DNA from: a virus
IMG/VR virus record: IMGVR_UViG_3300042938_001493
Coordinates: 1-25,656 of that record
Direction: 5' to 3' (one strand)
Length of the DNA stretch: 25,656 nt
The translations under genes were made by a program, and so were the position numbers. Of this stretch, positions 900 through 17,769 are shown in pieces. Position 1 is the stretch's first letter. Each line of letters starts with the position of its first letter. A model generated the notes under the pieces. The model made no database searches and was not told the DNA's origin. It was given only the letters and a program-made list of their open reading frames with translations.

Positions 900-921
900 A
901 TTGATGGTTTAAAATAATTCT

Positions 922-935
922 ACTCTATATAGAGT
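922..935. promoter_or_regulatory. 14-bp perfect palindrome upstream of the homing endonuclease
   Basis: ACTCTATATAGAGT is a perfect inverted repeat 23 nt upstream of the endonuclease start. It could be an operator for a dimeric repressor or part of a promoter. No regulator binding such a site is recognised in the window, so the role is open. Confidence 0.35.
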
Positions 936-964
936 TTATGTTTTAATGGTTATATAACCTAAAG

Positions 965-972
965 ATAAATAT
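965..972 (-). promoter_or_regulatory. ATATTTAT leader element (candidate phage promoter box)
   Basis: On the minus strand this reads ACATATTTATC, 65 nt upstream of the GIY-YIG gene. The same 11-mer occurs upstream of the plus-strand gene at 24216. It is one of a set of similar elements at operon heads in this window. Confidence 0.35.
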
Positions 973-984
973 GTCTTAATAAAA

Positions 985-1010
985 AAAAGGATGAGATAAC
1001 CCATCCTTTT
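985..1010 (-). terminator. Rho-independent terminator after the fibre gene
   Basis: A perfect 9-bp stem (AAAAGGATG pairing with CATCCTTTT) encloses an 8-nt loop. On the minus strand it is followed by a run of eight T residues in total (988 to 981). It lies 31 nt past the end of the fibre gene at 1041-2591, so it would stop transcription before the homing endonuclease. The A-rich left flank means it could also act weakly on the plus strand. Confidence 0.8.
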
Positions 1011-1040
1011 ATTAAAATAAAAAGTTAATAGTATCCACCA

Positions 1041-2591
1041 TTAATAGGTTCCCCCATCGAGTCGATCCCATTCGCATAAGACCCTTACCCCATTCGGAGC
1101 TCCATTGTTAAAATTAGTATTTCTAATAACGATATCATTTAATTGTGTTAACCAACCCCTATTATTATAACCTTCACTACCAGTGTATTCTGTAACATCA
1201 GGTATTTGTGTCCCTGTTAAACCAGTTAAAGTGTTTAATTGGGTGATAGTAAAATAAGTGTCACCAGAGGTTATACCGGATAGTAATCCAGCTCCATTTT
1301 GAATTCTAATACCAGAGGCTAAAGATGTTATTGAAGTGTCACCAGTTGGATTATAGTTTAATGTTATTTGTGGGTCTTCAACATATAATTCATTTGTAGC
1401 TACAGTTGTACCAGTACCAAATACTATAAAATTACCATGGACTATTAAGTCCCCAATACCAGGGGTACTAATTGATCCGTTTGAACCAATAGTTAAACCA
1501 CCTTGTCCAAATTTTACCGGACCATCAGAAAGTCCGTTATTAACAACTAAGTTACCACTAGTAGTTCCAAGTGTTAATGTGTTCGTTGAATCATCATACG
1601 CGAATTCACCGGTAGTATCAGTTTTTAATTCTCCACTAACACCCGCGTAAACAACTTGACCAGAAGTTAAATTACCAATAGATATACCAGAAAATGATGT
1701 TATATATTGTGTTAAATCTGGTTCACCCTGATTCCTACTTATAGTTAATGAATTATTAGTTCCATTATAAGTGAAACCTGTAACATATGTATCATTTATA
1801 TCTATATTACTTAAATCTACACTATAATTTACCCCATCATTTCTTTTAAAATCAATTGAAGATGTACCTGAATTATATGTACCACCAGTTGTATAGGTAT
1901 TTTGGAATGGTAATGTGTGTGGGATATTAAGATTTTTATAATATAATCCAATTGTCGCTGAATTTGTATTATTTGTAGCTGGTACTGAAACTGTACCACC
2001 TGTTACATAAATTTCATTTGTATTGACATATCCAGTTAAATAACCAACATTAGTTATTTCTAATGGATTTGTTCCTAAAACTGTGGGGTTATAATAACTT
2101 AAACTTTCAAGTGTAGTTGTACCAGTAACATTTAAATTACCTTTAACAACATTATTACCATATAAATCAATATCAGTGAACGCACTTAGAGTTACCGGTA
2201 CATTTGGTTTACCATTATTTAAACTAATGGTTAATGTATTTGGTGACCACGTAACACCTGTAACGTAACTATCCACACCAGCGATTGATGTTATATCCGC
2301 TAAAACAAAACCATTTGTTGATCCTGATAAAAATTTACCGGTTAAATTGGTAACACCACTATAAGAAGTTATTTGATCCCTAATAACTAAATTATTGATA
2401 TTAGAACCAACTTCAAAATAAGTTGAATTATTATCACTTGGTGTGAAATTCCCACCACTTGTTCCAGAGAAATATAATATACCATTAAATAGATTTACTA
2501 ATGGTTCACCCATTTCAATACCATTTGATGGTAATGATTTATTATTTGTTTGGGTATTTTTTAATATGTGTGTCGTTTTCCTTATAGCCAT
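1041..2591 (-). CDS. Tail fibre protein with beta-strand repeats
   Basis: This 516-residue protein is low in Cys and Lys and rich in Gly, Thr, Asn and Ser, typical of trimeric phage fibres. Its N-terminus (MAIRKTTHILKN ... GEPLVNLFNGILYFSGTSGG) matches that of the partial fibre at 1-202. The shaft has recurring units of the form 'YVTGxTxxxxxNTLTISxNxG', for example at about 88-107 and 270-287. Residues about 380-420 read GDLIVHGNFIVFGTGTTVAT followed by ELYVEDPQITLNYN, a block I recognise from other phage fibres. The C-terminus is CEWDRLDGGTY. The next gene upstream ends in a similar LNGGTW, so this may be a shared end motif. It acts at the virion surface, probably in adsorption. The ligand is not predictable. 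Confidence 0.75.
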   Translation of the reverse strand: MAIRKTTHILKNTQTNNKSLPSNGIEMGEPLVNLFNGILYFSGTSGGNFTPSDNNSTYFEVGSNINNLVIRDQITSYSGVTNLTGKFLSGSTNGFVLADITSIAGVDSYVTGVTWSPNTLTISLNNGKPNVPVTLSAFTDIDLYGNNVVKGNLNVTGTTTLESLSYYNPTVLGTNPLEITNVGYLTGYVNTNEIYVTGGTVSVPATNNTNSATIGLYYKNLNIPHTLPFQNTYTTGGTYNSGTSSIDFKRNDGVNYSVDLSNIDINDTYVTGFTYNGTNNSLTISRNQGEPDLTQYITSFSGISIGNLTSGQVVYAGVSGELKTDTTGEFAYDDSTNTLTLGTTSGNLVVNNGLSDGPVKFGQGGLTIGSNGSISTPGIGDLIVHGNFIVFGTGTTVATNELYVEDPQITLNYNPTGDTSITSLASGIRIQNGAGLLSGITSGDTYFTITQLNTLTGLTGTQIPDVTEYTGSEGYNNRGWLTQLNDIVIRNTNFNNGAPNGVRVLCEWDRLDGGTY

Positions 2592-2603
2592 TGTTTATTT
2601 TAT

Positions 2604-2611
2604 TTAAATAT
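2604..2611 (-). promoter_or_regulatory. Imperfect ATATTTAT leader element
   Basis: The minus strand reads ATATTTAAAT 12 nt upstream of the fibre gene at 1041-2591, one mismatch from the consensus. It lies in a 36-nt gap, so the fibre could equally be read from an upstream promoter. Confidence 0.2.
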
Positions 2612-2627
2612 CATTAATTTTTAATTT

Positions 2628-2984
2628 TTACCAAGTACCGCCATTTAAAATATCGTCTTGAATTATTGAATTTTCCGCTGTTATTTGTCTTGTATTACCA
2701 CTTAGATCTAAACCTAAATCTAAAATTGGTGTATAAATTATCCCAGTAGCTGTCCATATTGTAGTTGTCCCACTAGCTGTGTTAACATCTCTAAATCTTC
2801 TACTTGGTGTACCTAAATCAATTATACCATCGTTAATGGGTAATAATGAGTCACTAAACGTAATACCAGTTAAAGAACACGAATTAATTTCATCTGTATT
2901 TACTACATCACAAGCTGATGGGTAATCATCAATAATATATGTTTTAATTATTTCACCATTAGTACCACATCCGTTACTACTCAT
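2628..2984 (-). CDS. Small fibre-like virion protein
   Basis: This 118-residue protein starts MSSNGCGTNGEIIKTYIIDD and then reads DGIIDLGTPSRRFRDVNTAS, SGTTTIWTATGIIYTPILDL and NSIIQDDILNGGTW. The 'DLGTPSRRFRD' block and the Gly-Gly-Thr-aromatic C-terminus are fibre-like, and the ending parallels LDGGTY in the 516-residue fibre downstream. Its ATG overlaps the stop of the upstream structural gene (ATGA, 4 nt), so the two are co-translated. It may be a short fibre, a fibre tip or a fibre-attachment protein. Family not identified. Confidence 0.6.
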   Translation of the reverse strand: MSSNGCGTNGEIIKTYIIDDYPSACDVVNTDEINSCSLTGITFSDSLLPINDGIIDLGTPSRRFRDVNTASGTTTIWTATGIIYTPILDLGLDLSGNTRQITAENSIIQDDILNGGTW

Positions 2985-4009
2985 ATTAATAATCCATTTA
3001 AAGTAATTGTCGCTTCATAGTTAGTATTTCGTACTATATGAATACCTAATTCGTCACCCGCATTTATTGGGAATGGGGCTGTGACTGGTGTACCATTCAC
3101 ACTTAATGTGTAACTATTAATATTTACTGTTGAAATCGCGTTATAAGTAGCGGATTCATTTAAAATTATATTAACACTATTCTTATTTGTTCTAAAAACA
3201 ATGTTTAACATTATTGAAACACCATCTGGTAAAAATTTCTTACTAAGTAATACATTACTAACTTTTTCATCTAATTCCACTAAATTCATATTTCTTGTTA
3301 TCGCAGGGATAACTTTAAAATCATCTTCACATAAAAGATATCCTTGTAATTTAATTTCATAAAGTTGAACATAATATCTTTTTGATTCAAAATCTTCAAT
3401 TTGACTTTCGTCACCAATTGATTCCAATATCAATGGCATTGGGTGTCCATTTACTTTAATGTAAGCTTGTAACGATTTAAATGTTCTCATTATCTTACTA
3501 TTCAAAAGGTTAAGATCTCTCATTTTACTACAAAAAAATCTAACTTCATAAGTTAAATTAATTGGTACTGGTTGAGGTATTTGATACATATCAAATCCTT
3601 TTACACCATCATTAAATGTTGGTACTTTCATATATGTATATGTAGGTGTCCCAGGTATATTCCAATAACCAGCTTGATTTTCACCACGTTGGGCGTCAGG
3701 TTTTCTAGTAATAGTTACAAAAGGTAATTTAACATTTTTCCATTCATCAACATTAGTCCAATCTCTTACAAACTCAACCCATCTTTGAATACCAATTAAA
3801 TAAACCGGAACTTTTTGACCATCAATAGATATTTCTAAATCTTTTTCAACAAAATCATTAAATGTTTTATCCATATCCTCATGGGTAATTCCTCTTGGTA
3901 AATAAGTTCCATTATCGGAAATACCATCCAACCATTCTTGTCTTCTTTCAACCCCTTCTTTAGGTGGATTAATATTTATATTTGTTAAAAATTTTTTAGG
4001 TAAAGACAT
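2981..4009 (-). CDS. Putative tail or baseplate structural protein
   Basis: This 342-residue soluble protein has no signal or membrane segment. The central region (about 80-250) is well-folded mixed alpha/beta sequence, including PQPVPINLTYEVRFFCSKMR, then KIMRTFKSLQAYIKVNGHPM and an acidic ESIGDESQIED stretch. The last 90 residues are a beta-rich tail (SVNGTPVTAPFPINAGDELG). It is the first gene of a group with the small fibre-like protein (4-nt overlap) and follows another structural-looking gene. I think it belongs to the neck, tail-completion or baseplate class of myovirus proteins, but no T4 homologue can be named from sequence alone. The start is the ATG at 4009, with an A/T-only leader. 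Confidence 0.5.
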   Translation of the reverse strand: MSLPKKFLTNININPPKEGVERRQEWLDGISDNGTYLPRGITHEDMDKTFNDFVEKDLEISIDGQKVPVYLIGIQRWVEFVRDWTNVDEWKNVKLPFVTITRKPDAQRGENQAGYWNIPGTPTYTYMKVPTFNDGVKGFDMYQIPQPVPINLTYEVRFFCSKMRDLNLLNSKIMRTFKSLQAYIKVNGHPMPLILESIGDESQIEDFESKRYYVQLYEIKLQGYLLCEDDFKVIPAITRNMNLVELDEKVSNVLLSKKFLPDGVSIMLNIVFRTNKNSVNIILNESATYNAISTVNINSYTLSVNGTPVTAPFPINAGDELGIHIVRNTNYEATITLNGLLI

Positions 4010-4029
4010 TTTAATTATTTGTTTACTAT

Positions 4030-4037
4030 ATAAATAT
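4030..4037 (-). promoter_or_regulatory. ATATTTAT leader element
   Basis: The minus strand reads AACATATTTATATAG, 20 nt upstream of the structural gene starting at 4009 and immediately after the stop of the preceding gene. It shares ACATATTTATA with the element near 15353. Confidence 0.35.
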
Positions 4038-4038
4038 G

Positions 4039-4557
4039 TTAAGGTAGGATTTCGTTAGATAAAGCTGGTGTACAAATAATTGTTCTATAAAATCCTTTGT
4101 AACCTAAAATTGTGTGTGAATTATCAGATATAATTTTACCATCATTTACTACCGTAAAATATTTTATTGTGAATTCATTTTCTGGATACGCTATATAATC
4201 ACCATATTTAACATCCACTTCCAATTCATCTAATTGTTCTTGATATAAACTAAATGTTAATTTACCAGGTTCAAGGTTTCTAAGACCACCTTTACTCCAC
4301 GTTTTATTCTCAGGAAGTTCAATTTTAATTAAACCAACTAACTCTACCGGTGGTAAAAATCTTAATTCTGATGAATTAACTTCACCATATAATGAATCAA
4401 CATTAGTAGCTATTGGATCAATACGATACAAAATTACTGACATATTTAAATCACCTTCAAGGTATTCTCTACCCATATCTATTTCTAAACCAAAATCTTC
4501 CTGTGAAAAAAATTTGTTTAATCTAGTGATTGGGACTTTATTTTTGTTCAATGACAT
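4039..4557 (-). CDS. Putative neck/baseplate virion protein
   Basis: This 172-residue protein starts MSLNKNKVPITRLNKFFSQE. It contains VILYRIDPIATNVDSLYGEV and RFLPPVELVGLIKIELPENK, then YGDYIAYPENEFTIKYFTVV. The pattern of a subunit contact strand followed by 'GD-I-Y-P-E-x-E-F-x-I-x-Y-F-x-V' recalls T4 gp14-type neck proteins, but the resemblance is weak. It is the first minus-strand gene before a divergent junction with the SNF2 helicase gene and probably leads the structural group downstream. The assignment to the virion rests mainly on neighbours. Confidence 0.45.
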   Translation of the reverse strand: MSLNKNKVPITRLNKFFSQEDFGLEIDMGREYLEGDLNMSVILYRIDPIATNVDSLYGEVNSSELRFLPPVELVGLIKIELPENKTWSKGGLRNLEPGKLTFSLYQEQLDELEVDVKYGDYIAYPENEFTIKYFTVVNDGKIISDNSHTILGYKGFYRTIICTPALSNEILP

Positions 4558-4564
4558 ATTATAT

Positions 4565-4581
4565 TATTTATTAATAAATAT
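4565..4581. promoter_or_regulatory. Palindromic TATTTATTAATAAATA element at a divergent junction
   Basis: The 16-bp perfect palindrome TATTTATTAATAAATA (4565-4580) lies between the divergent structural gene (start 4557) and the SNF2 gene (start about 4613). It contains ATATTTAT on the minus strand (4574-4581). The same palindrome with matching flanks recurs at 19129-19144. A bidirectional promoter or operator is possible. Confidence 0.4.
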
Positions 4582-4612
4582 TGTTTTATACAATCAAATT
4601 CATATTATTATT

Positions 4613-6418
4613 GTGATTCAAGCGGAAGATATTAAAATAAAAAAAATTACGGATAAATTACTATTATATAGTGGTTTTAACCCATATATTATTTACTTGA
4701 AAAAAAAGGTAAATTCTAGTAATCATCAATTAACTAAAACTCAATTAGAATATATTAGTAAAAATTATGACAGAGATATTGTTAAAATTAATAATATTGT
4801 AGGTATAACATCATTTTTCGGTAATGAACTTCAAAAGGAATATAATTTAAAAAAAGTTCCGGAAAAAATTATGGTTGAAAGTGTTATTGGTGAAAGTGAT
4901 AAAGCGTATCATGTTTTAGGTAAGTTTTATAAAAACCAAGAGGATATTAAATTATTTTGGTTACCTAAAACCCAATTAATTGATGATTTATACACTAAAT
5001 ATGATGATGTCACCATTGATTTTGATAAGTATGAAGAAATGGATAAGTTGGGTAGGAAATACTTTGATCATCAAAAAGAGGGTGTTAAATTCTTATTAGA
5101 TAGAAAAAAATGTATTTTGGCTTTAGATATGGGTTTAGCTAAAACGGCCACATCTGTTATGGCCGCCCTTGAAACAGGGGCTAAAAGGATATTGGTTGTG
5201 TGTCCATCTTCACTTAAAATTAATTGGCAACGAGAGATTGAGATTTATACTGAACCAGAAGATGTTAGTATCATTAGGGGTAGTAATTGGGAACCGGCTA
5301 AATTTACAATTATTAATTACGATATACTTAAAAATTTCCATACCGTTTTACAAAAGGGTAAGGAATATAACCCAAAAAGAATTAGTCGAGAACTTATTAA
5401 TGAGAATTTTGATGTAATTATATTGGATGAATCACATTACATTAAAAATTCAAAATCTAACCGTGGAAAAATTATACAAGAAATCGTTAAGGAATGTAAC
5501 CCAAAATATATGTGGTTACTTACTGGGACTCCAATCGCAAATAGACCTAGTGATTATTACAATTTACTTAATCTCATTAAAGTACCTATAGCTTCAGATT
5601 GGTCTTATTATATAAGAAGATATTGTGGTGGTAGACAAATAAAAACAAAGATTAAAGGTGTATTGAGAACTATTTGGTTAAGTGATGGTGCGTCCAATTT
5701 AGTTGAACTATCTGAAAGAACTAAAAATACTATTTTAAGAAGGAAGAAGGAAGATGTGTTAGATTTACCAGAAAAAATTATTGAACCAATATATCTGGAA
5801 CTTGAAAATAGAGTTAAGTATGATGAAGTATTTGACAAATATTTAGAGTGGAGAAAATTACAAGGTAAAGGTGGTAATGTTGTGAAACATTTAGTTGAAT
5901 TAGTTTTATTAAGGAAATTTATCGCCATAGAGAAAGTTAAACATTCCATTGAGATAGCGGAGAACGCGATTGAAAATGGTAAGAAAGTTTTAATTTTTAC
6001 AAATTTTAGAGAAGAGTTAGAATGTTTTAAAGAACATTTTGGTAAATTAGGTGTCTATCTGGATGGTAGTACCAGAGAAAAAGATCGACAAAAAGCTGTG
6101 GATAATTTCCAAAATGATGAAAAAGTAAAAGTATTTGTTGGTCAAATAAAGGCCGCTGGTGTAGGTTTAACATTAACTAAGGCGGAAGTCGTAATTATAA
6201 ACTCCTTGGATTGGGTTCCAGGTAATTTAGAACAAGCGGAAGATCGGGCTTATAGAATTGGTCAATTAAAAAATGTAATTGTATACTACCCATTGTTTGA
6301 TGATACAGTTGATACTTTGGTGTGGGGTGTACTTAAAAATAAAAAAACCATTATTAATACCATAATTGGTGATATTGATGATGAAAATATAATAGAAAAT
6401 ATAATTGAAGATTTATGA
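4613..6418 (+). CDS. SNF2-family helicase-like ATPase
   Basis: The two RecA-like domains of an SNF2 ATPase are complete. Counting from the GTG at 4613 (601 aa), motif I is LALDMGLAKT at about 169-178, motif Ia VVCPSSLKINW at about 195-205, motif II DESH at 272-275, and motif III LLTGTP at about 302-307. Motif IV (KVLIFTNFRE) is at about 458-467, and motifs V-VI (IKAAGVGLTLT ... QAEDRAYRIGQ) at about 513-551. The second Gly of the usual GLGKT is Ala here (GLAKT). Such proteins translocate on double-stranded DNA and remodel forks or recombination intermediates. An upstream ATG at 4514 would overlap the divergent gene and add a hydrophobic, non-conserved leader, so the GTG start is preferred. 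It overlaps the glutaredoxin gene by 4 nt. Confidence 0.85.
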   Translation: MIQAEDIKIKKITDKLLLYSGFNPYIIYLKKKVNSSNHQLTKTQLEYISKNYDRDIVKINNIVGITSFFGNELQKEYNLKKVPEKIMVESVIGESDKAYHVLGKFYKNQEDIKLFWLPKTQLIDDLYTKYDDVTIDFDKYEEMDKLGRKYFDHQKEGVKFLLDRKKCILALDMGLAKTATSVMAALETGAKRILVVCPSSLKINWQREIEIYTEPEDVSIIRGSNWEPAKFTIINYDILKNFHTVLQKGKEYNPKRISRELINENFDVIILDESHYIKNSKSNRGKIIQEIVKECNPKYMWLLTGTPIANRPSDYYNLLNLIKVPIASDWSYYIRRYCGGRQIKTKIKGVLRTIWLSDGASNLVELSERTKNTILRRKKEDVLDLPEKIIEPIYLELENRVKYDEVFDKYLEWRKLQGKGGNVVKHLVELVLLRKFIAIEKVKHSIEIAENAIENGKKVLIFTNFREELECFKEHFGKLGVYLDGSTREKDRQKAVDNFQNDEKVKVFVGQIKAAGVGLTLTKAEVVIINSLDWVPGNLEQAEDRAYRIGQLKNVIVYYPLFDDTVDTLVWGVLKNKKTIINTIIGDIDDENIIENIIEDL

Positions 6419-8223: not shown

Positions 8224-11200
8224 CTAAAAGTATTCTGTATCAGTTGGTTCATTAATAATTTCAGTAGGTTCAATTTCCGTGATATACATATATTCCGGAT
8301 TAGCACCAACCTTTTCCCAAAAGTCAATTTCTTTTTGTTCCATAACAAAAACATCATCTAATGTATCCTGATCAATAGGATCTGTTGGGAAACCAGAACA
8401 TAGTTCAAGTTGTTTCTTGGTAAAATATTGTCTTTTTGATGGATTATCAATTAAAATATCACTTCTAATTTCCGGACTAAAACAAACAATTAATGGTTCA
8501 ATCCTAGTGTTAAAAGCCACTAAATATTTAGTGACATTATACTCACCCTTTAAATCTGGATTATTCTCAATTTGATTAGTTAAGATTAACGATGAATTAA
8601 ATTCAATGTCAGTAGTACCATCTTTATTCTTTTTAGCTTTAACATCAGCGTGAGATTTTTTAGTACCGGTATTAATATAATATATTGTGTCACCAAGGTT
8701 AACATTAATATTTTCTTTTAATAAAAGTTCCATATGAGCCTGACGTGGCATAGGATTACCGGCTTTATTCTTCCTTTTAGTATTTTCTTTATAACTTTCT
8801 AATGTTTGTTTTACTTTCCCTTTACTAGCGATTTTAAGTAATGGGATTTCTTGGTTATAAATCATTTCAACATTCTCATAATAAAGTTCAATGAATTCAT
8901 TACCATTACCTTCTAATAACATTCTAATCGCTTTATCTAAAAAATCTTCAATGTACTTTGGCATCTTAGCCGATTTAATTGTATTACCAACTAACTTAAC
9001 TTCACCATCAATTAAATCCGCATAATTTTTTCTTGATAAATTAATAGTTGATTCAATTACCTCATCAATACCTAACTTCATAAAACCTCTCATATACTTT
9101 TCATTGAACTCAGCTAAAGCCGCTTCAATACCATTATATATTTTATCTTTAACAACTGTTAAGTGAGTACCTAAACCAGTGTATGTTAATTCTTTAGCGT
9201 TTTCTGGTATCTTAAAGTTGAAACCATCGGTATTATGGGCGATTATTTTACCCTTACCGATAATAAATGTCCCATCTTCTGTTGAAACATCATAGACAAA
9301 ATTATTTGGACATGGGTTGTCAATATCAGATATATTAGTGATTAAACCTTGACTGACATCCCCATTTTCATAAACATCAATATATTCACCAATTTTTAAT
9401 GATGAAGGTTTTATTTCAACCCCATTTTGAAAAAGTGAATGGTCTTCCGTCACATCAACATTACCCCTATCTTTTATTGAAATTGATTTAATTTGTTTTT
9501 CTGTACCATGTCTATAAACATACTTAATATCTTTCCAACCACTTCTAGTTAATATCTTATATGGTTTATCTGAGTAATCTCTTAATTGATCACCTTCAAT
9601 AGTACCAGTTATATCAAATAAATCTGAAATTGGTAAAATGTCTAATATATCATCACCATATTTAATATAAACAGGTGTGTCATACGTCACACTATCACCT
9701 ACTATTGGTTCAAACCCCTTATCCATAAAGAATTTAATCATCAATCGTAGATATTGTCTACCAGTACAAGTGATCATCGCACCAATGTTAGTATCACCCC
9801 AAGGAAATACATCTGGGGCTGATAATGAACCAAAGTTAGAGTTATTAAGAATTTTAATTGGTAATTGTTTCTTATCAAACATATCAGCCCCTTTATCGTC
9901 CCCTTCTCTTTGAGCTTTTTTCATTAGATTCTTATATAAATCTCGTTCCGCGAATAAATAAGTTAACATACCTTTTAACGCACCGGTAATATCAACTTCT
10001 GGGAATACATCGTGAGTTAATTGTATTGAAGGGTAAAGTGATCCATAATCTAATTTAACTACATTTGGTACGAAACCAATTCTTAATAAACGAGATAATC
10101 CACCAGGAAATTTTTCTTTAGGTTGATAATCAGGTATAGCTAAACCATTCTCATATGACCAAGTACACATCAATACTTTCCATAAGGCCGCTGTACCCAT
10201 TGTAGAGGTTCTTTGTAATGTTGATGGAACTAATTTAGACAATAAAAATGTCGCTTGATTATATTTGTAGTCAACTTGTTCTGTTTCCCATAAATCATCT
10301 ATTAGATATTTCTTAATTATAAATTTACCATCCACTTCTTCCCATCCTTCATAACCAGTTTTATCTTCCGGAACTACCATATACTTACCATCAGATTCGT
10401 TAAATAAGTAAGGACGTTCATCTACCCAAATTTTAGCGATCTTATCGTGACCAACATATACACGATTAGGTTTAGCGATTTTAGAATATTTTGTAATATA
10501 CTTCAAACCAGTTTCTTTGATGTTTGAATTAATGGCTTTAGCTCTTCTAACCGCGTGCCACACATCAATAACGTTATAACCCCATAATACAGTTTGTTGA
10601 TAATACTCCATCTCACCACCTAATTTTAAAGTAGCTTGTTTACGATAAAGTGGCATACCATTCTTAAGTGTCTTAGTAATTTTTTTATAATCTAAATTAA
10701 GTAATTCACAACGACCTAAAATATATGTCCAGTCAAAGTTCTCTGAATTATAACCACAAATAATATCTGGTTTTAATTCATCAATAATATTAAAAAATGT
10801 ATAAATCGCGTTTCGTTCTTCATCATCACTATCAATATCTAATACGTGTTCAAAACCACGATTATCTTTCATACCAATTTGTAAAATTCTACCGGTTTCT
10901 GGTGTTAAAGATGTGGTTTCAATATCAAAAGAAAATCTAACTAAATCCGCGTAATCATCAAACCCTTTAAATAATCTTTTACCACTTTGTATTAAGAATT
11001 GCTCTGTAGGGCCAAGGGTTAAAAAACCCTTCCTATTTTCTTCCTTTTGAATATCAATACCGGATTCTTTAAAAAAGTTAGTAATATTTCTATAACTACC
11101 TCTGGTTTGAACTAAGAACTTAAAACCATTTTCTAAACGTTTGTGGATATTACCATTTTCATCCTCTAATTTAAGGGGTGTAATTGTAATCATGTGTTCT

Positions 11201-11433
11201 CTTAACTTAGTTTTGATAAGTCTACGATCACCTTTAAAAAACTTATCCATATCCGGACTTTTCATCCAAAGGAATGGTTTAAACTTATGTTTTTCAATAC
11301 GTTTCCCAGTAATGGGATCATTTATAATAAGATTAACAAAATTTTGATCGTAGGTTGATTCAATACCAATAATATACTTTTGTGGGTCTCTACCCTCCAA
11401 AAAATCCTTAATTTCTTCTTTACTTAATTCCAT
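8224..11433 (-). CDS. Family B DNA polymerase containing a mini-intein
   Basis: The 1069-residue precursor is the phage replicative polymerase. The 3'-5' exonuclease motifs are FDIETT (D170, E172), GYNSENFD (D234) and YLIDD (Y376, D380). Polymerase motif A is LDYGSLYPSI (D462), motif B is KILNNSNFGS (K527, N531), and a KNY thumb motif follows (802-804). Motif C is split: GD (579-580) is followed by an intein (581-734) and then TDG (735-737). Splicing would restore GDTDG and give a 915-residue enzyme, close to T4 gp43 (about 900 aa). All catalytic carboxylates are present. The leader is short and contains a TAnnTTTG box. The gene is convergent with 7031-8185 and probably monocistronic. Family assignment is firm; it looks T4-like rather than protein-primed. 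Confidence 0.95.
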   Translation of the reverse strand: MELSKEEIKDFLEGRDPQKYIIGIESTYDQNFVNLIINDPITGKRIEKHKFKPFLWMKSPDMDKFFKGDRRLIKTKLREHMITITPLKLEDENGNIHKRLENGFKFLVQTRGSYRNITNFFKESGIDIQKEENRKGFLTLGPTEQFLIQSGKRLFKGFDDYADLVRFSFDIETTSLTPETGRILQIGMKDNRGFEHVLDIDSDDEERNAIYTFFNIIDELKPDIICGYNSENFDWTYILGRCELLNLDYKKITKTLKNGMPLYRKQATLKLGGEMEYYQQTVLWGYNVIDVWHAVRRAKAINSNIKETGLKYITKYSKIAKPNRVYVGHDKIAKIWVDERPYLFNESDGKYMVVPEDKTGYEGWEEVDGKFIIKKYLIDDLWETEQVDYKYNQATFLLSKLVPSTLQRTSTMGTAALWKVLMCTWSYENGLAIPDYQPKEKFPGGLSRLLRIGFVPNVVKLDYGSLYPSIQLTHDVFPEVDITGALKGMLTYLFAERDLYKNLMKKAQREGDDKGADMFDKKQLPIKILNNSNFGSLSAPDVFPWGDTNIGAMITCTGRQYLRLMIKFFMDKGFEPIVGDSVTYDTPVYIKYGDDILDILPISDLFDITGTIEGDQLRDYSDKPYKILTRSGWKDIKYVYRHGTEKQIKSISIKDRGNVDVTEDHSLFQNGVEIKPSSLKIGEYIDVYENGDVSQGLITNISDIDNPCPNNFVYDVSTEDGTFIIGKGKIIAHNTDGFNFKIPENAKELTYTGLGTHLTVVKDKIYNGIEAALAEFNEKYMRGFMKLGIDEVIESTINLSRKNYADLIDGEVKLVGNTIKSAKMPKYIEDFLDKAIRMLLEGNGNEFIELYYENVEMIYNQEIPLLKIASKGKVKQTLESYKENTKRKNKAGNPMPRQAHMELLLKENINVNLGDTIYYINTGTKKSHADVKAKKNKDGTTDIEFNSSLILTNQIENNPDLKGEYNVTKYLVAFNTRIEPLIVCFSPEIRSDILIDNPSKRQYFTKKQLELCSGFPTDPIDQDTLDDVFVMEQKEIDFWEKVGANPEYMYITEIEPTEIINEPTDTEYF
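9232..9693 (-). mobile_element. Mini-intein in polymerase motif C
   Basis: The 154-residue insert starts with Ser581 (SVTYDTPVYI, block A) and has block B VTEDHSLF (T662, H665) and block F VYDVSTEDGTFIIG. It ends IIAHN (H733, N734) before Thr735 of the extein. These are the residues needed for class 1 splicing. There is no LAGLIDADG or HNH domain between blocks B and F, so it is a splicing-only mini-intein. The site, between the two Asp residues of GDTD, is a well-known insertion point in family B polymerases. Splicing should yield a continuous GDTDG motif. Confidence 0.92.
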
Positions 11434-11493: not shown

Positions 11494-11859
11494 TTAATTT
11501 ATTACATGGATAAATAGTTTTTCTTGTATTGGGGTAACCAATGTACCCATACCATCTAAAAAATTGATGGTAAATTCACCAATAAATGTTCCAGGTTCTT
11601 TAGTATCCTTTTTTCTCCATTTATATACAATATAATATTCCTCACGAGATGTTAAATCCTCACAAGGAATAATTTTTTTAACAATTTCCGCTGGTCTACA
11701 TGAAATCTTTTTTATATTGTTTTCAGGGTTAAACATAGAGAAAGTGATATCCGCGTTTTGAATTAATTCGTAAAAATTACGAAAATCATTTCTTCCGTCA
11801 AATATTAACTCCATTGTTAAGAGGGGTAATTCACTATTTTTTTTAATGTAAAAATTCAT
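11494..11859 (-). CDS. Baseplate upper protein-like (BppU-type) virion protein
   Basis: This 121-residue protein is a compact beta-rich domain. It starts MNFYIKKNSELPLLTMELIF and has NADITFSMFNPENNIKKISC, then YYIVYKWRKKDTKEPGTFIG and EFTINFLDGMGTLVTPIQEK. The order 'low-complexity ligand, dG.tV.F.m....., Y.W...dt..pG.y..eF.i...dG...t.P' is that of the BppU N-terminal domain (DUF2479-like) used to attach receptor-binding proteins to the baseplate. This is a resemblance from memory. It is the last gene of the fibre operon starting at 15317, 2 nt after the 151-residue protein, which fits a role in adhesin attachment. Confidence 0.5.
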   Translation of the reverse strand: MNFYIKKNSELPLLTMELIFDGRNDFRNFYELIQNADITFSMFNPENNIKKISCRPAEIVKKIIPCEDLTSREEYYIVYKWRKKDTKEPGTFIGEFTINFLDGMGTLVTPIQEKLFIHVIN

Positions 11860-11861
11860 AA

Positions 11862-12317
11862 TTAGTTTATTAAATTCATAGTTAAAATTCTATTGTAAAA
11901 TCTTGAAATACCTATGGAGTTTAACACCTTTGCTGTTACTACCTGACCAACGGCTAATGTAACCACATCTGCAATTGCTATATCTTCTTTAGTGATAACA
12001 TTTGTGTGCTCTCTTGTAGATGTTGGTACTATTACTCCATCAACATAAATTGAAACTTGAACGTTTGATGAGCCTTGATTTGGTGGGTAAATTACACCAC
12101 TCAAAGTAACACTTTCAAAACCTGTAATTGCTCCTGCATTTGTGCCAATATCTCCAACAATAATATTTGTGCCAGCATTTGAAACTGCGCCACCAACTAA
12201 TGGTTGAGCTAATAAATTAGAATATAAATTATTAACATCAACTACACCTTGTTGAGTGATATTTGCCAACGTTGTATTAAATTGAGTGTTTAGTGTGTTT
12301 TTTGAAATGATTTTCAT
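11862..12317 (-). CDS. Short protein with ice-binding-like (DUF3494-type) fragment
   Basis: This 151-residue protein contains VSNAGTNIIVGDIGTNAGAI at 45-64 followed by TGFESVTLSGVIYPPN. 'GDIGTNAGAITGF' is the hallmark of the first half of Bacteroidota DUF3494 (ice-binding) domains. The second half (87-151: VQVSIYVDGVIVPTSTREH ... SRFYNRILTMNLIN) aligns with the C-terminus of the 950-residue fibre upstream (FSLYEGATMVSNSNR ... YLNNRILTIVKL). So this gene repeats the end of its neighbour without the rest of the domain. Base composition here and in the neighbour's C-terminus is richer in G+C than in nearby genes. It overlaps the 48-residue ORF by 4 nt (ATGA). Probable role: surface-binding accessory of the fibre. 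Actual ice binding is not implied. Confidence 0.65.
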   Translation of the reverse strand: MKIISKNTLNTQFNTTLANITQQGVVDVNNLYSNLLAQPLVGGAVSNAGTNIIVGDIGTNAGAITGFESVTLSGVIYPPNQGSSNVQVSIYVDGVIVPTSTREHTNVITKEDIAIADVVTLAVGQVVTAKVLNSIGISRFYNRILTMNLIN

Positions 12318-12460
12318 GGGTTTATAATTTTATTAAAGTGACGTGTTTGAATTTTAGATATTAGTTCTTGTGTTGTTTTAATTTCTGTTTTAATTTCATT
12401 AATATCATTTTTTAATGATTCTACTAAAATAAATAGTTGTTCTAAAGTAATTGGTTCCAT
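12314..12460 (-). CDS. 48-residue helical (coiled-coil) ORF
   Basis: A short frame reads MEPITLEQLFILVESLKNDI then NEIKTEIKTTQELISKIQTR. It is amphipathic with heptad spacing (L, I, I, I at regular positions), so a short coiled coil is likely. The start lies 4 nt after the stop of the 950-residue fibre, and the stop overlaps the next start as ATGA. It exactly fills the gap between the two genes. Tight coupling on both sides supports a real gene. It could be a trimerisation or chaperone helix for the fibre; that is inference. Confidence 0.7.
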   Translation of the reverse strand: MEPITLEQLFILVESLKNDINEIKTEIKTTQELISKIQTRHFNKIINP

Positions 12461-12464
12461 GATT

Positions 12465-15317
12465 TTATAATTTTACTATTGTTAATATTCTGTTATTTAA
12501 ATATACTCTTCCAATATTTGTGCGCCACCTAACAGTTATAGCCTGTGTGCCATCTACCGTTGCAATGCCGCTTAGTATAATATCTCTGGTGTAAGCATCT
12601 ATTTCTTTAAGTCTGTTTGAATTTGAAACCATAGTTGCTCCTTCGTATAAACTAAAATTACTACTGTTACCAAACTGTTGAGAGTTGTCATAAATGTTTC
12701 CATTAAATGTGCTGCTTACAAATATTGAAACTGCCCCAGATGATGTTCCTAAATCACCTGTGATTTGAGCCAACGCTGTATTGCTAACATTTCCAGCGTT
12801 TGTATAACAAAGAAAAGTTTCTAAAATACCCATATTAACAACACTTGCCGTTGTTGGTTTAGTAAGTACTCCTGATTCAAATGCTAATGCTCCACCTGTA
12901 GTAAGTAATCTGCCATTAAAAACACAATTAGCACCCAATGCAGCAGCTGAACCGTTAGATATATAATTACCAACTATATTGTTATTTGCTCCAATACCAA
13001 TTGCGCCACCTGTTGCAACAAAAAATACATTTGCGGATGTTGCTCCTCCTGTAAGACTTATAGTAGTTGCAGCACCTGTGTTAATTGCTCCTGCTACTCT
13101 TATTACAAACAAATCATTGGCGCCACCGTTTAAAGTTAATGTACCAGCAACTGAACCTGCTCCTGCAACGGTGTAAACTCCTGGTCCTAAAATTTCTCCA
13201 CTACCAAAAGTTAAACCATGAGATGATGTTGGTGTTAAATTATTTAAGTATAAATATAACGTCTGTAAATCTAATTGAGCCAAAGCAACTACGTTACCCG
13301 CTATCACTTGGTATTCTCCATTAAAATCTACTTTATAAGTTCCTGCGGGTGGTGTAATAGTCATGCCTGTTGCCACTACATCTGTATTTGATTCTGTGTA
13401 AATTTCGGTATCTGCATTAATTGATTGCCAAGTATTTTCAATAGCAACCACTTTACCGTTAGCATCAACGCCAATTGGTTTACCGTTAGTAGATGGTGAA
13501 GCACTTGTTAAGTTTCTAAGCCGTAAACCCGAATCATTTGTTGTATCCGAAAGAATATCTAGTTTAGTTGTTGGTAATATCGTACCAATCCCTGTATTAC
13601 CTGATGAAGTACAAATATATCTAATAACACCATCACCTTTTGCTAATATGATAGTATCATTTAAACCTGAGTCCAAGCCCAATGTAGATGCACCTATGAT
13701 TGTATTTCTAGAACCTGTAGTTATACCTCTTCCTGTATCTCTTCCAATAATAGTGTTATAATTTCCAGATGTTAATGTTGGTGCAGTATCTGTACCAATG
13801 GCTGTATTATATTCACCTATCGTAATATTCGCACCAGCTCTATATCCTAATCCAACGTTAAAACTATTTAAAGCTGAGTTTAAAGCGTTCCATCCAACCG
13901 CCACATTTCTTTGTCCTGATATATTAGAACGTAACGTATAATACCCTAAAGAAGTGTTTAAAGTTCCAGTAGTCATTACAAGCATAGATTGATTACCAAC
14001 AGCGGTGTTTTGTGTACCAGAAGTTAAATCCATCAAAGAATATGCACCTATCGCAGTATTTTGATGTCCTAAAGAAACCAATAAGGTTTGAGAACCAATA
14101 CCGACATTATCATTCCCTAAAATATTTTGTCTTAATACATTATGTCCTATCCCTACGTTGTTGTCACCACTTATGTTTTTTAATAAAGTTTCAAACCCAA
14201 AAGCAAAATTGTTATCCCCCGTCGTGTTAGCACTTAAAGCATTGACACCAAATACAACATTACTAACTATTTGTGATGGACCTTTTCCAATATTTAATCC
14301 ATTTAACGTAGAATTACCATCATTTCTAACATTAAATAAATTAGCATTTGCGCTATTTTCTACTTTTAAAGCATAATTTGAAGATGTGGAACTACTACCA
14401 ACAACATGAATTTTTGCTGTTGGTGATGCTATGTTAAAACCATTATTTCCATCTCCTCCTAAAACAACTCTCTTTACTGTACCAGTGTAAAATACGTGAC
14501 TGTGAGAACTGCTTGGGGTTATGTAATCTAATTGACCCGCAGAACCACCAAATCCCATGACAGAACCACCATCGTCATATATTATAATTTTTGGGTTCTG
14601 TCCAGCAGTATTTGAGTATTGTCCACCCATATTAATTGCATCAATTGTCGAACCCATCGGTGTTGATGTACGAGTATGATAAACAGATAATAAACTTACT
14701 GGCGTAGTAGTACCAATACCAACATTACCACTTTTTGTGATAGTCATTTTAGTACTACCACTAACTCTAAAATTAATATCTTGATTATCGTTACTACCTA
14801 TATTAATAGAGGTATTTAATTTATTACCATTTTGTAAAATAACAGTACCCCTATATGGTACCCAATTAGTACCATCATATCTATAAGTTGTTAATGTATC
14901 GGTAACAAAAACTGTGTTATCTGTAGTACCAGTGGTATATACCCAATCAGGATTTAACCACTCGGCAATATAATTAGTTTTTCCACTCCATATACCAGTA
15001 CCCCCACTTATCAAATATCTATCACCATCAGTACTACCACTTATTGGTGTGGATACTATTGATATTACTGGAGCTAATTCAGTGATATTAACATTATTAA
15101 ATGGTAACCAACCTACATTACCTTGATTATCTAAAGCGGTTAATATATAACCTTCACTAGAACCATATGTTACTTGTAAATTAGTTGTTTTTGTTTTACC
15201 ACTAACTTCTAATTTTTCAGAGGGTAATGGAGTACCAATACCAAGTTTACCCTCATTAGTTATATAAGATGTTCCTTGTGATATAAAACCATTTTTAATT
15301 ACAAATTCATTTCCCAT
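12465..15317 (-). CDS. 950-residue fibre with YadA-like repeats and ice-binding-like C-terminus
   Basis: Architecture in order: N-terminal shaft with KLGIGTPLPSEKLEVSG (24-40) and GYILTALDNQGNVGWLPFNN (56-75); a 'WVYTTGTTDNTVFV' segment; a second NVGIGTTTPVSLLSV (198-212); about eleven 17-residue repeats of YadA-head type at 353-545 (pattern 'G.xNtaiG..aL..ntt'); a third GIGTILPTTKLDIL (576-589); and a C-terminal module from about 651. This starts GMTITPPAGTYKV and continues with an ALAQLDLQTLYLYLNNL helix, GSGEILGPGVYTVAGAGS, GTLTLNGGANDLFVIRVAG and an NGRLLTTGGALAF strand, then ITGDLGTSSGAV and finally NRILTIVKL. That module matches my memory of Bacteroidota DUF3494 proteins. It heads a four-gene downstream operon. 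A virion adhesin role is likely; the ligand is unknown. Confidence 0.8.
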   Translation of the reverse strand: MGNEFVIKNGFISQGTSYITNEGKLGIGTPLPSEKLEVSGKTKTTNLQVTYGSSEGYILTALDNQGNVGWLPFNNVNITELAPVISIVSTPISGSTDGDRYLISGGTGIWSGKTNYIAEWLNPDWVYTTGTTDNTVFVTDTLTTYRYDGTNWVPYRGTVILQNGNKLNTSINIGSNDNQDINFRVSGSTKMTITKSGNVGIGTTTPVSLLSVYHTRTSTPMGSTIDAINMGGQYSNTAGQNPKIIIYDDGGSVMGFGGSAGQLDYITPSSSHSHVFYTGTVKRVVLGGDGNNGFNIASPTAKIHVVGSSSTSSNYALKVENSANANLFNVRNDGNSTLNGLNIGKGPSQIVSNVVFGVNALSANTTGDNNFAFGFETLLKNISGDNNVGIGHNVLRQNILGNDNVGIGSQTLLVSLGHQNTAIGAYSLMDLTSGTQNTAVGNQSMLVMTTGTLNTSLGYYTLRSNISGQRNVAVGWNALNSALNSFNVGLGYRAGANITIGEYNTAIGTDTAPTLTSGNYNTIIGRDTGRGITTGSRNTIIGASTLGLDSGLNDTIILAKGDGVIRYICTSSGNTGIGTILPTTKLDILSDTTNDSGLRLRNLTSASPSTNGKPIGVDANGKVVAIENTWQSINADTEIYTESNTDVVATGMTITPPAGTYKVDFNGEYQVIAGNVVALAQLDLQTLYLYLNNLTPTSSHGLTFGSGEILGPGVYTVAGAGSVAGTLTLNGGANDLFVIRVAGAINTGAATTISLTGGATSANVFFVATGGAIGIGANNNIVGNYISNGSAAALGANCVFNGRLLTTGGALAFESGVLTKPTTASVVNMGILETFLCYTNAGNVSNTALAQITGDLGTSSGAVSIFVSSTFNGNIYDNSQQFGNSSNFSLYEGATMVSNSNRLKEIDAYTRDIILSGIATVDGTQAITVRWRTNIGRVYLNNRILTIVKL
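12468..13367 (-). other. DUF3494-like (ice-binding fold) module with shifted base composition
   Basis: Residues about 651-950 of the fibre form this module. The N-terminal signature (GDLGTSSGAV) lies after the beta-solenoid-like half, not before it, so the order is rotated relative to a single-domain ice-binding protein. Two hand-counted 60-nt lines inside it (12901-12960 and 13021-13080) are 40-42% G+C, against about 22% in a line from the shaft (14761-14820). Ala codons GCA and GCC are far more frequent than in neighbours. Confidence 0.6.
13683..14261 (-). repeat. About 11 YadA-head-like 17-residue repeats
   Basis: Within the 950-residue fibre, units such as NVGIGHNVLRQNILGND and NTAVGNQSMLVMTTGTL recur every 51 nt with diverged DNA. 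The conserved pattern is Asn-(Thr/Val)-x-(Ile/Val/Leu)-Gly. Such units build left-handed trimeric beta-rolls. Confidence 0.8.
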
Positions 15318-15374: not shown

Positions 15375-16112
15375 TTATAATCCGAATCTTGATTTTGTTG
15401 AATTATAGTTTTGAAGGATTTCTGAAGATGTAAGTGTCCTATCGTAAAATCTTACATCATATATTTTTCCGTTAAGATAACCATCAAATGTTTGACCTAT
15501 AGCGTCAGCTCTACCCAATTTATATGTGTGAACTAAATTATAATCAATTGGAAAACCGGTTGATGTTTGTGATACAAATTGTCCGTTTAGATATAGTGTA
15601 ATGTTATTTGAATCGTAAGTAGCTGTGAGTGAATAAATTTGATTAAGATTTATTAATGGGGTTGACACTTGTTTAGCTAACCCACCAGAGGAAGACATAG
15701 TACCTTCAAAATACCCTGTTAACCCAGATTGTATATAATTAAGAACAACAGCCTCAAAATTAGAAGTTCTTGTATTTTGTCTAAAGACAATATATTGAGC
15801 CACTGTATTACCACCAGTTTTAATTGAAGTATTACTTATTATACTACAAACAACTTCTATTGTGGTTGAGGTTGGTTTAATTCCTATGTTAGTATTAAGG
15901 TAATCGTTAGTACCATCTAATACTATACTACCACCATTATTTGAATTATATGTTGGTCCGTTTATTAATGTACCATTATTACCATTACCACTAATATCTT
16001 TTATTATAGTACTTGATGTATCATAAAATGAATTAGGTGAATTTGGATTTAAATATAAAAATAAACCATCTTTAATTATATTTGGACCTCGCCAATTACC
16101 TATTGTACTCAT
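15375..16112 (-). CDS. LamG/concanavalin A-like adhesin (paralogue 3)
   Basis: This 245-residue protein is a single beta-sandwich of the Laminin-G-3/ConA-like class. It has IIKDGLFLYLNPNSPNSFYD, GNGNNGTLINGPTYNSNNGG and the diagnostic SIVLDGTNDYL, then a strand with TATYDSNNITLYLNGQFVSQ (YLNGQ) and a C-terminal KIYDVRFYDRTLTSSEILQN followed by YNSTKSRFGL. It is one of three related genes here (with 16385-17101 and 17101-17769). Such domains usually bind carbohydrates or act as capping lectins on phage fibres. It overlaps the preceding 90-residue gene by 4 nt. No signal peptide, so it is assembled from the cytoplasm as a virion part. Confidence 0.75.
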   Translation of the reverse strand: MSTIGNWRGPNIIKDGLFLYLNPNSPNSFYDTSSTIIKDISGNGNNGTLINGPTYNSNNGGSIVLDGTNDYLNTNIGIKPTSTTIEVVCSIISNTSIKTGGNTVAQYIVFRQNTRTSNFEAVVLNYIQSGLTGYFEGTMSSSGGLAKQVSTPLINLNQIYSLTATYDSNNITLYLNGQFVSQTSTGFPIDYNLVHTYKLGRADAIGQTFDGYLNGKIYDVRFYDRTLTSSEILQNYNSTKSRFGL

Positions 16113-16381
16113 ATAATTGGAAATGGATTTGGATTAGTCCATTCTGGTGTGGATAATATTGTTAACATTTCTTCATATGTGTACAATCCCTCTTTTGTTG
16201 TTAGGGAATCTACTGATGAGGGAATTTCTATTGAATCCCATTTAACAAATGTTTTAGTTCCGTCAACGGAAAACCTTAATGTATCTTGAGATGTTTCACA
16301 TACTTGTGTAAAATCAATCATTGGTAATTCTGACATATTGAATATCATAAATTTTCTGTTTTCGTAATCTTGTGTTTCCAT
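16109..16381 (-). CDS. Small protein between LamG paralogues, unknown function
   Basis: This 90-residue protein starts METQDYENRKFMIFNMSELP and continues IDFTQVCETSQDTLRFSVDG, TKTFVKWD, then a LTTKEGLYTYEEMLTILSTP helix and a Trp-Pro-rich end. It is soluble and compact, and looks like an intact, conserved small fold rather than a broken fibre. I have a sense of similar proteins beside fibre genes in Bacteroidota phages but cannot name a family. It is inserted between two LamG paralogues, 3 nt after one and overlapping the other by 4 nt. It may be a fibre-assembly or attachment factor. Confidence 0.6.
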   Translation of the reverse strand: METQDYENRKFMIFNMSELPMIDFTQVCETSQDTLRFSVDGTKTFVKWDSIEIPSSVDSLTTKEGLYTYEEMLTILSTPEWTNPNPFPII

Positions 16382-16384
16382 GTT

Positions 16385-17101
16385 TTAAATAAATCTATTT
16401 TTTAAAGCGTTATAATTTTGAAGAACTTCTTGAGATGATAATATTCTATTGTATATTGACACGTTGGATATATTCCCTTTAAATGGAAGGTTATTGAAAA
16501 AGGCGTCAGTTTCAGACCTACCTACATTTAATGGTCTAGTGTAGTCAGATATATTTGGGTTAGCACTCCAACCATTAAATGTTGATTTTAAAATACCATT
16601 TACATAGAATTTAATTTGACCAGATAAACCAGAATATTTTATTGAACAACAAATATGATTCCATTCATTATTATTAAAAGGTGTTGTTGTAATATTTTGT
16701 CCAGTGTTTGCGACATTAGATTTAGCGAACTCAACATATCCAAATGCTAAATAAAGAGCAAACCCAGTGGCACTATTTGGTTCACCCCCATGTTGAACAA
16801 TAACCCCAGCAGACATTGTAGGATTAGGTTTAACCCACGAACATATGGTAAATGAATCACCATCAAAAAATTTTAAAGAATTTGAATTTCCACAATTAAC
16901 ATAATCGTTAGTACCATCAAATTCAATACTTCCACCATTATTTGAATTATATGTTGGATTATTAGTTAAAACCCCATCGTTTTTATAGTATGTTAAATCA
17001 TTCCAAATGGTAGAACCACTCACATATGATTTAGGGTTAGCCCCATCTAAATTTAAAACTAAACTATCTGTTACTATTTTTGAACTTACTTTTCCTGACA
17101 T
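16385..17101 (-). CDS. LamG/concanavalin A-like adhesin (paralogue 2)
   Basis: This 238-residue protein starts MSGKVSSKIVTDSLVLNLDG and has the shared block NPKSYVSGSTIWND and then SIEFDGTNDYVNCG. Residues 80-150 include SFTICSWVKPNPTMS and NNNEWNHICCSIKYS (the 'W.H' strand of LamG domains). The end is ISNVSIYNRILSSQEVLQNY then NALKNRFI. It is the closest relative of 17101-17769 at the N-terminus, where the DNA itself is nearly identical (see the 56-nt repeat). It shares one base with its upstream neighbour (TAATG). Role: probable carbohydrate-binding tail adhesin. Confidence 0.75.
   Translation of the reverse strand: MSGKVSSKIVTDSLVLNLDGANPKSYVSGSTIWNDLTYYKNDGVLTNNPTYNSNNGGSIEFDGTNDYVNCGNSNSLKFFDGDSFTICSWVKPNPTMSAGVIVQHGGEPNSATGFALYLAFGYVEFAKSNVANTGQNITTTPFNNNEWNHICCSIKYSGLSGQIKFYVNGILKSTFNGWSANPNISDYTRPLNVGRSETDAFFNNLPFKGNISNVSIYNRILSSQEVLQNYNALKNRFI
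16997..17052 (-). repeat. 56-nt near-identical repeat, copy 1
   Basis: This segment in paralogue 2 matches 17665-17720 in paralogue 1 at 54 of 56 positions, both mismatches being single-base changes. It encodes the NPKSYVSGSTIWND block. The similarity is well above that of the rest of the two genes, which suggests recent duplication or gene conversion. Confidence 0.85.
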
Positions 17102-17769
17102 TATAAACCAAATCTACCTTTTAAACTATTATAATTTTGAAGTACTTCTGAGGGTGTTAGAGCACGATTATAGACTTGAATGTTAGATATTCCCCCATTA
17201 AAGTGTTGTGAACCATCACCAAGTCTACCGATATCATTCCCAAAATAACTAGAAGATGGTGTCAATACAGTAGAACTAGAATTGTCTTCAACACCATTAA
17301 TATATATTTTAGGGTTCCCATTATTATAAGTAATTGTAATACTATACCATATTAAGTTTTGTAATACTGTATTAGAATACAAATGAACAATATTACCTAA
17401 ATAAAACTTAATAACATTAGTTTGACTATCACTAATCCCAGTAACCCATCCATTATTATCATTACCAAAGTTACTAAAAATTGTTTTACCATTTTGTGAT
17501 GTGTTTAAGTAAATAAAATGATTAACAGAAAATGTGTTAAGATTTCCTATAAAATTATTTACCCCCACATAATCATTAACACCATCAAATATAATACATC
17601 CCCTATTACTAGTATCAAATGTTGGTCCATTGGTTAATGTACCATTATTACTATTTTTACTAATATCATTCCAAATAGTAGAACCACTCACATATGATTT
17701 AGGGTTAGCTCCATCTAAATAAAGAACTAATCCATCTGTTACTATTTTTAGTGAAAAATGAAAACTCAT
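17101..17769 (-). CDS. LamG/concanavalin A-like adhesin (paralogue 1)
   Basis: This 222-residue protein starts MSFHFSLKIVTDGLVLYLDG, then NPKSYVSGSTIWNDIS, SKNSNNGTLTNGPTFDTSNR and CIIFDGVNDYVGV. A middle strand WYSITITYNNGNPKIYINGV carries the 'YING' signature, and the end is ISNIQVYNRALTPSEVLQNY then NSLKGRFGL. Family and role are as for the two downstream paralogues: one ConA-like sandwich, probably a tail lectin. It follows the 444-residue fibre by 1 nt and shares one base with the next gene, so the set is a single operon from 19105. Confidence 0.75.
   Translation of the reverse strand: MSFHFSLKIVTDGLVLYLDGANPKSYVSGSTIWNDISKNSNNGTLTNGPTFDTSNRGCIIFDGVNDYVGVNNFIGNLNTFSVNHFIYLNTSQNGKTIFSNFGNDNNGWVTGISDSQTNVIKFYLGNIVHLYSNTVLQNLIWYSITITYNNGNPKIYINGVEDNSSSTVLTPSSSYFGNDIGRLGDGSQHFNGGISNIQVYNRALTPSEVLQNYNSLKGRFGL
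17665..17720 (-). repeat. 56-nt near-identical repeat, copy 2
   Basis: Partner of 16997-17052 (54 of 56 identical, 668 nt apart). A following CTGTTACTATTTTT stretch is also shared between the two genes. Confidence 0.85.

Follow-up and report, generated by a model that had tools for sequence, protein, structure and literature searches.

What is a DUF3494 (PF11999, ice-binding-like) module doing at the end of a phage tail fibre, and what is the small gene two open reading frames (ORFs) further on that resembles part of it? The locus lies in the 25.7-kb IMG/VR record IMGVR_UViG_3300042938_001493, analysed over positions 1 to 25,656 (the window). The last ~320 residues of the 950-aa fibre form a TNF/C1q-like jelly-roll knob into which a circularly permuted DUF3494 domain is inserted, behind the fourth strand. 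The order of the permuted domain is helix, coils 2-6 and then coil 1, which carries the GDLGT motif. Knob and guest domain together are called the composite tip below.

Two independent hidden Markov models (HMMs) were built, from 43 canonical Bacteroidota DUF3494 domains and from five insert-free phage knobs (L017, L058, L062, L067 and L068). The fibre matched PF11999 at E=9e-20 (71.7 bits, against a curated Pfam cut-off of 28.7), bearing out the DUF3494 identity that an initial annotation of this DNA had given to the fibre C-terminus. For the isolated C-terminal 300 aa, the PF11999 match fell into two stretches (82.6 bits), with profile 60-203 against fragment residues 24-164 as the better one. 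The canonical DUF3494 HMM placed profile 44-199 at aa 662-816 (independent E-value, iE, 3.5e-36) and profile 3-68 at aa 827-890 (iE 9.6e-13). Since the first match precedes the second, the GDLGT block follows the solenoid, as the initial annotation had noticed. The insert-free-knob HMM matched with positions 5-48 at aa 631-674 (iE 7e-14), and again, to position 118, at aa 871-950 (iE 2e-11). The fibre features were assigned as follows.

12465..15317, minus strand: tail fibre, 950 aa, carrier of the composite tip (ORF; PHROGs; Pfam)
13302..13430, minus strand: TNF/C1q-like knob, first half, aa ~630-672 (insert-free-knob HMM 5-48)
12861..13292, minus strand: DUF3494 alpha-helix and solenoid coils 2-6, aa ~676-819 (canonical HMM 44-199; PF11999; AlphaFold2/Foldseek)
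12678..12839, minus strand: DUF3494 coil 1, the N-block with GDLGT, aa ~827-880 (canonical HMM 3-68)
12468..12665, minus strand: knob, second half, aa ~885-950 (knob HMM, ending at position 118)

When the insert was removed in silico, the two knob halves scored as a single knob (88.7 bits). When coil 1 was moved ahead of the solenoid, the two Pfam stretches merged into one (profile 6-203). Canonical DUF3494 copies analysed alike gave profile 1-208 in linear order. The first knob half alone scored 47.8 bits with the knob HMM and 0.8 bits with the canonical DUF3494 HMM. An upstream coil 1, considered because a Pfam alignment started at aa 621, was rejected, as this piece is knob by its HMM scores.

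One tip chain was modelled using AlphaFold2 with an 11-sequence alignment (predicted local distance difference test, pLDDT, 89.9; predicted template modelling score, pTM, 0.69). The blocks of the helix and coils 2-6 were mostly at pLDDT 90-97, and a single-sequence model of the tip (pLDDT 41) was set aside. The solenoid with braced helix that typifies DUF3494 was present in the model, and Foldseek against the PDB returned the DUF3494 ice-binding proteins 5b5h, 3wp9 and 6bg8, with the helix and solenoid part fitting 5b5h at 1.7 Å root-mean-square deviation over ~151 columns. DUF3494 alignments of ~140-160 columns were mostly at ~1.7-2.3 Å and longer sequential ones (~190-205 columns) mostly at 5-8 Å, a loss of fit that the permutation predicts. 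The same search yielded TNF-like lectins (2wq4, 9ib6, 6tid) and phage knobs, and the knob half matched the CBD domain of the cyanophage short fibre 8ke9. Among viral models, proteins without an interruption could be aligned across the insert, at 1.9-2.3 Å. The initial annotation had treated a DUF3494 fold and an ordinary fibre knob as alternatives that such a search would separate; both folds were matched, and only their mutual exclusion fell away, because a permuted DUF3494 is inserted in a fibre knob.

In canonical DUF3494 proteins the coils are ordered in space as b1-b6-b5-b4-b3-b2 (PMC7966756). As coil 1 stacks on coil 6 in the solved structures, the permuted order yields a solenoid that is continuous in sequence. 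By analogy with the canonical structure, the two ends of the insert would be placed side by side, and would therefore be suited to insertion into a loop.

The composite was found on at least ten viral contigs (the window, L003, L010, L014, L015, L016, L048, L050, L063 and L064) and in six genes of five Bacteroidota genomes (G001, G029, G388, G613 and G756). Genome searches numbered about a thousand, a figure in which some genomes appear twice. The 16 distinct composites, ten from phage contigs and six from chromosomal secreted proteins, all had the same four-part order (knob 1-49, DUF3494 ~48-200, DUF3494 ~4-55, knob ~50-118); the canonical linear order of coil 1, helix and coils 2 to 6 occurred in none. 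First knob halves scored 18-48 bits with the knob HMM versus about 4 at most with the DUF3494 HMM. The break fell at knob HMM position ~49/50, where the guest domain leaves the host knob, which then resumes. Excising the insert restored one intact knob in all composites except L016, in which the detected second knob half was too short. Searches by tblastn with the tip and canonical DUF3494 against annotated phages and plasmids gave nothing significant, the tip and the canonical consensus had no significant match among 50,697 annotated phage records, and a loose DNA pattern scan for the solenoid gave unrelated matches only.

The unit stood at the C-terminal end of every carrier. Carriers varied, including a collagen-like fibre (L010), shorter fibre-type proteins (L003, L014 and L016) and a 1126-aa protein (L015), so the composite tip is not limited to classical fibre genes. 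At L015 1571-4948, where the tip closes the 1126-aa protein, the next gene is tape-measure-like by eye. Phage carriers start with fibre sequence and so, as judged by eye, lack the signal of a secreted protein; signal-like N-termini were seen, also by eye, in most bacterial copies only. The link to Bacteroidota surface proteins drawn in the initial annotation was upheld by the five genomes with the unit on secreted proteins, and the attachment role proposed there is likely. Contig 67 of G029 (701-4871) was seen to hold three tandem composite-tip genes, followed by a gene that reads like another secreted surface protein; the third copy lies outside the set of six fully analysed bacterial genes.

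These carriers bear on whether the domain binds ice, so that virions and Bacteroidota proteins would adhere to ice crystals or guard the host against freezing. True ice-binding proteins are found within PF11999, the nearest solved structure in both sequence and fold (5uyt) is that of an ice-binding protein from an Antarctic member of the Flavobacteriaceae, and three viral PF11999 genes were listed as cryoprotection auxiliary metabolic genes (AMGs) in an Arctic survey (PMC11515562). In 10 of 10 phage contigs, however, the domain is fused in a fibre-type knob and is not a free secreted protein, which argues against cryoprotection in these phages. The S-SKS1 record, named as a relative in that survey, had no PF11999 match at E<=1. 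Ice binding by the fibre tip is possible but unsupported, and as an account of these proteins it was considered improbable. Viral "ice-binding genes" of this type are more likely cell-gripping tips than antifreeze.

A tree built on the DUF3494 part grouped 15 of the 16 distinct composites in one clade (98/80) and placed the composites among Bacteroidota canonical domains. Constraining all composites to one clade was not rejected (approximately unbiased test, p=0.133), and the unit probably arose once. In tandem canonical copies the local order of the composite appears across the unit junction; the alignment with the tandem protein 5uyt accordingly spans its first solenoid and coil 1 of its second unit, and G001 contains both tandem canonical genes and a composite. 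This junction order and co-occurrence suggest, but do not prove, an origin of the permuted unit by excision from a tandem array, plausibly with coils 2-6 kept from one copy and coil 1 from its successor. The same junction order would also be seen if the tip were a truncated tandem pair (the solenoid of copy 1 and the start of copy 2) that looks permuted without being so. Composites have no coil-1 block before the helix (about 4 bits at most) and no second solenoid after it, and the confident one-chain model fits one closed unit. A mere truncated pair is accordingly highly improbable, and such a pair is better read as a route to the permutation.

The explanation considered probable is a receptor-binding, cell-gripping tip made of a knob with a nested, permuted DUF3494 domain. 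In this mechanism the knob would begin, the chain would exit after the fourth strand to build the DUF3494 beta-solenoid, and the knob would then be completed. TNF-like knobs usually trimerise; if this knob does so, three solenoids would project from the tip and could be the first parts to touch the cell envelope of a presumed Bacteroidota host. The composite unit would have moved between phage fibres and bacterial secreted proteins. The nesting is like that in bacterial RTX adhesins, where ligand-binding domains bud from split domains (PMC12077191). This analogy, and the C-terminal position of the unit in every carrier, make the solenoid the most likely part of the fibre to touch the receptor.

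Alternatively, the solenoid may be a rigid spacer or shield, with the receptor site on the knob, as in TNF-like lectins such as BC2L-C. This agrees with the Foldseek matches of the knob half, which include sugar-binding TNF-like lectins (2wq4, 9ib6, 6tid) and the cyanophage CBD (8ke9). In split-domain arrangements, however, the binder is normally the most exposed part (PMC12077191), and the insert is retained across very different carriers, also in bacteria; a spacer or shield is therefore unlikely.

Several points weigh against the receptor-binding composite tip as a mobile unit of single origin. Its viral copies come from pattern-seeded and capped contig scans, a sampling that does not give frequency. 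At least one bacterial genome with the composite is a metagenome-assembled genome, in which mis-binning is possible; for one bacterial copy (L008), however, the contig is 277 kb long and the genes around it are ordinary chromosomal ones. L050 fell outside the composite clade. The DUF3494 tree gives no direction of transfer, and the capture from host to phage proposed in the initial annotation thus went unsupported. Receptor binding and the trimer are argued from analogy, and the predicted fold is that of a single chain.

The second part of the question concerns the 151-aa gene. From the fibre onward the minus-strand order is fibre, 48-aa ORF, 151-aa ORF, 121-aa ORF and DNA polymerase. The ORFs, their order and their overlaps were as first annotated, with the stop of the 48-aa ORF overlapping the start of the 151-aa gene (ATGA). 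A Pfam scan of the 48-aa ORF gave no family above cut-off. The features of this part are as follows.

12314..12460, minus strand: 48-aa ORF between the fibre and the 151-aa gene (ORF list; in-frame codon usage coding-like)
11862..12317, minus strand: 151-aa gene, a solenoid-less relative of the composite tip (HMM matches, tree, codon usage)
12201..12290, minus strand: last knob-strand edge and DUF3494 helix, aa 10-39 (HMM of the pre-helix/helix segment of composites)
12078..12191, minus strand: coil 1, the GDIGTNAGAITGF block, aa 43-80 (canonical DUF3494 HMM)
11877..12077, minus strand: knob second half, aa ~80-147 (knob HMM 46-115, iE 1.6e-6)

The 151-aa protein matched PF11999 at profile 4-61 (E=1.6e-4, 21.9 bits, under the Pfam cut-off of 28.7) and the canonical DUF3494 HMM at aa 43-88 (profile 18-63, iE 1.1e-11). 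Residues 10-39 scored 22.5 bits with the pre-helix/helix HMM, and 0 of 1000 shuffles scored as well. This helix-specific HMM ruled out another layout, coil 1 and knob end behind an unrelated 22-aa leader. As the HMM matches cover only the remaining parts, the gene is a 5'-truncated composite that lacks coils 2-6 as well as the first knob strands. The initial annotation had it repeating only the end of the module: coil 1 and the second half of the knob are indeed repeated, and the "only" does not hold, given the knob-strand edge and helix at aa 10-39. Its identity to the fibre is 34%, and its long branch falls outside a well-supported clade of the six closest phage tips; it is therefore no recent duplicate of the fibre beside it.

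The initial annotation's idea of a partial module acting in trans, here a functional mini-tip that would cap or co-assemble with the fibre, is possible, if not the favoured reading. The frame is open with coding-like codon usage, the gene is tightly coupled by the ATGA overlap, and the GDIGTN and NRILT motifs are conserved. Set against this are the missing first knob strands and all five missing solenoid coils, the long branch outside the fibre-tip clade, the finding of no relatives of the shortened form outside identical contigs of this phage, and the absence of a 151-aa-type gene from the other composite loci read. The balance leans slightly to a relic of a replaced tip, since neither the knob nor the solenoid is complete in the protein, each lacking a part. 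The gene is a shortened relative of such a tip, and most likely it either remains from an earlier tip at the locus or has diversified since. A broader proposal joins an old single fusion, circulating between unrelated phages and Bacteroidota surface proteins as an exchangeable adhesion tip, to the claims that most phage "ice-binding" genes encode receptor-binding tips and that the 151-aa protein is a second, solenoid-less mini-tip tuning binding at one tip position. As a whole, this was regarded as doubtful. The observations of the initial annotation are confirmed and its interpretation is supported in part.

The stretches compared were identical in two longer contigs of 73 and 50 kb, the former (L086) containing the whole window and, by eye, a T4-type tail sheath-like gene. 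In the fibre, aa ~271-525 match phage virion/tail-spike PHROGs and aa 88-153 are DUF2793 (Pfam). Just upstream of it, at 15375-17769 (minus strand), lie three LamG-like (concanavalin-like) lectin genes in near-tandem, two of which have one 79% identical DNA stretch in common; the trio is a possible diversified receptor-binding array. Downstream of the 151-aa gene, the 121-aa protein (11494-11859, minus strand) reads by eye as a small beta-sandwich in the style of baseplate upper protein N-domains, and Pfam and PHROG scans of it gave no family match. In the family B DNA polymerase gene (8224-11433, minus strand), ~130 residues seem to interrupt the sequence near the catalytic GD.TDG/S motif. 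They resemble a mini-intein, starting SVTYDTPVYIKYGDD and finishing IIAHN ahead of TDGF, with a weak match to Pfam Intein_splicing (E=0.0044). At L086 1312-2944, two open frames with intein-like C-terminal motifs (NGCVSHNS and NNILVHNS) adjoin a ribonucleotide-reductase-like gene, which suggests further inteins in this phage.

The composite tip offers a concrete, testable role for DUF3494 beyond ice binding, and as a shared unit it connects phage receptor binding with proteins secreted in the likely host phylum. It is a natural circular permutant in which a discontinuous beta-solenoid is made continuous. In the literature searched, no paper described DUF3494 in a phage fibre or a permuted DUF3494. 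The viral cryoprotection AMGs of the Arctic survey belong to the same Pfam family, also in viral contigs, and were linked there to Flavobacteriales (PMC11515562). Here the domain sits in a fibre knob, the comparison being one of family and not of the architecture of those three genes; caution is advised in taking viral PF11999 matches as cryoprotection genes. With solved DUF3494/PF11999 proteins (5uyt, 6a8k, 5b5h, 4nu2) the tip shares the helix, the triangular beta-solenoid and the GD(L/I)GT(N/S) motif of coil 1, at a Pfam score well above cut-off and with the close Foldseek fit given above. It differs in having coil 1 after coil 6, in being nested in another domain and in its place on a virion protein. 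Like TNF/C1q-like knobs and lectins (2wq4, BC2L-C N-domain; 9ib6, PLTL; 8ke9, cyanophage A-1(L) short fibre; 3rwn, Sf6 needle knob), it ends in a C-terminal jelly roll, both halves of which match insert-free phage knobs by HMM, but it carries a ~210-aa insert after the fourth strand. As in the split domains of RTX adhesins (PMC12077191), where the guest binds a ligand, the companion domain is broken and the guest leaves it with its two termini adjacent. In the tip, however, the host domain is a TNF-like and not an Ig-like fold, the guest is a permuted DUF3494, and the carriers are phage fibres and Bacteroidota secreted proteins.

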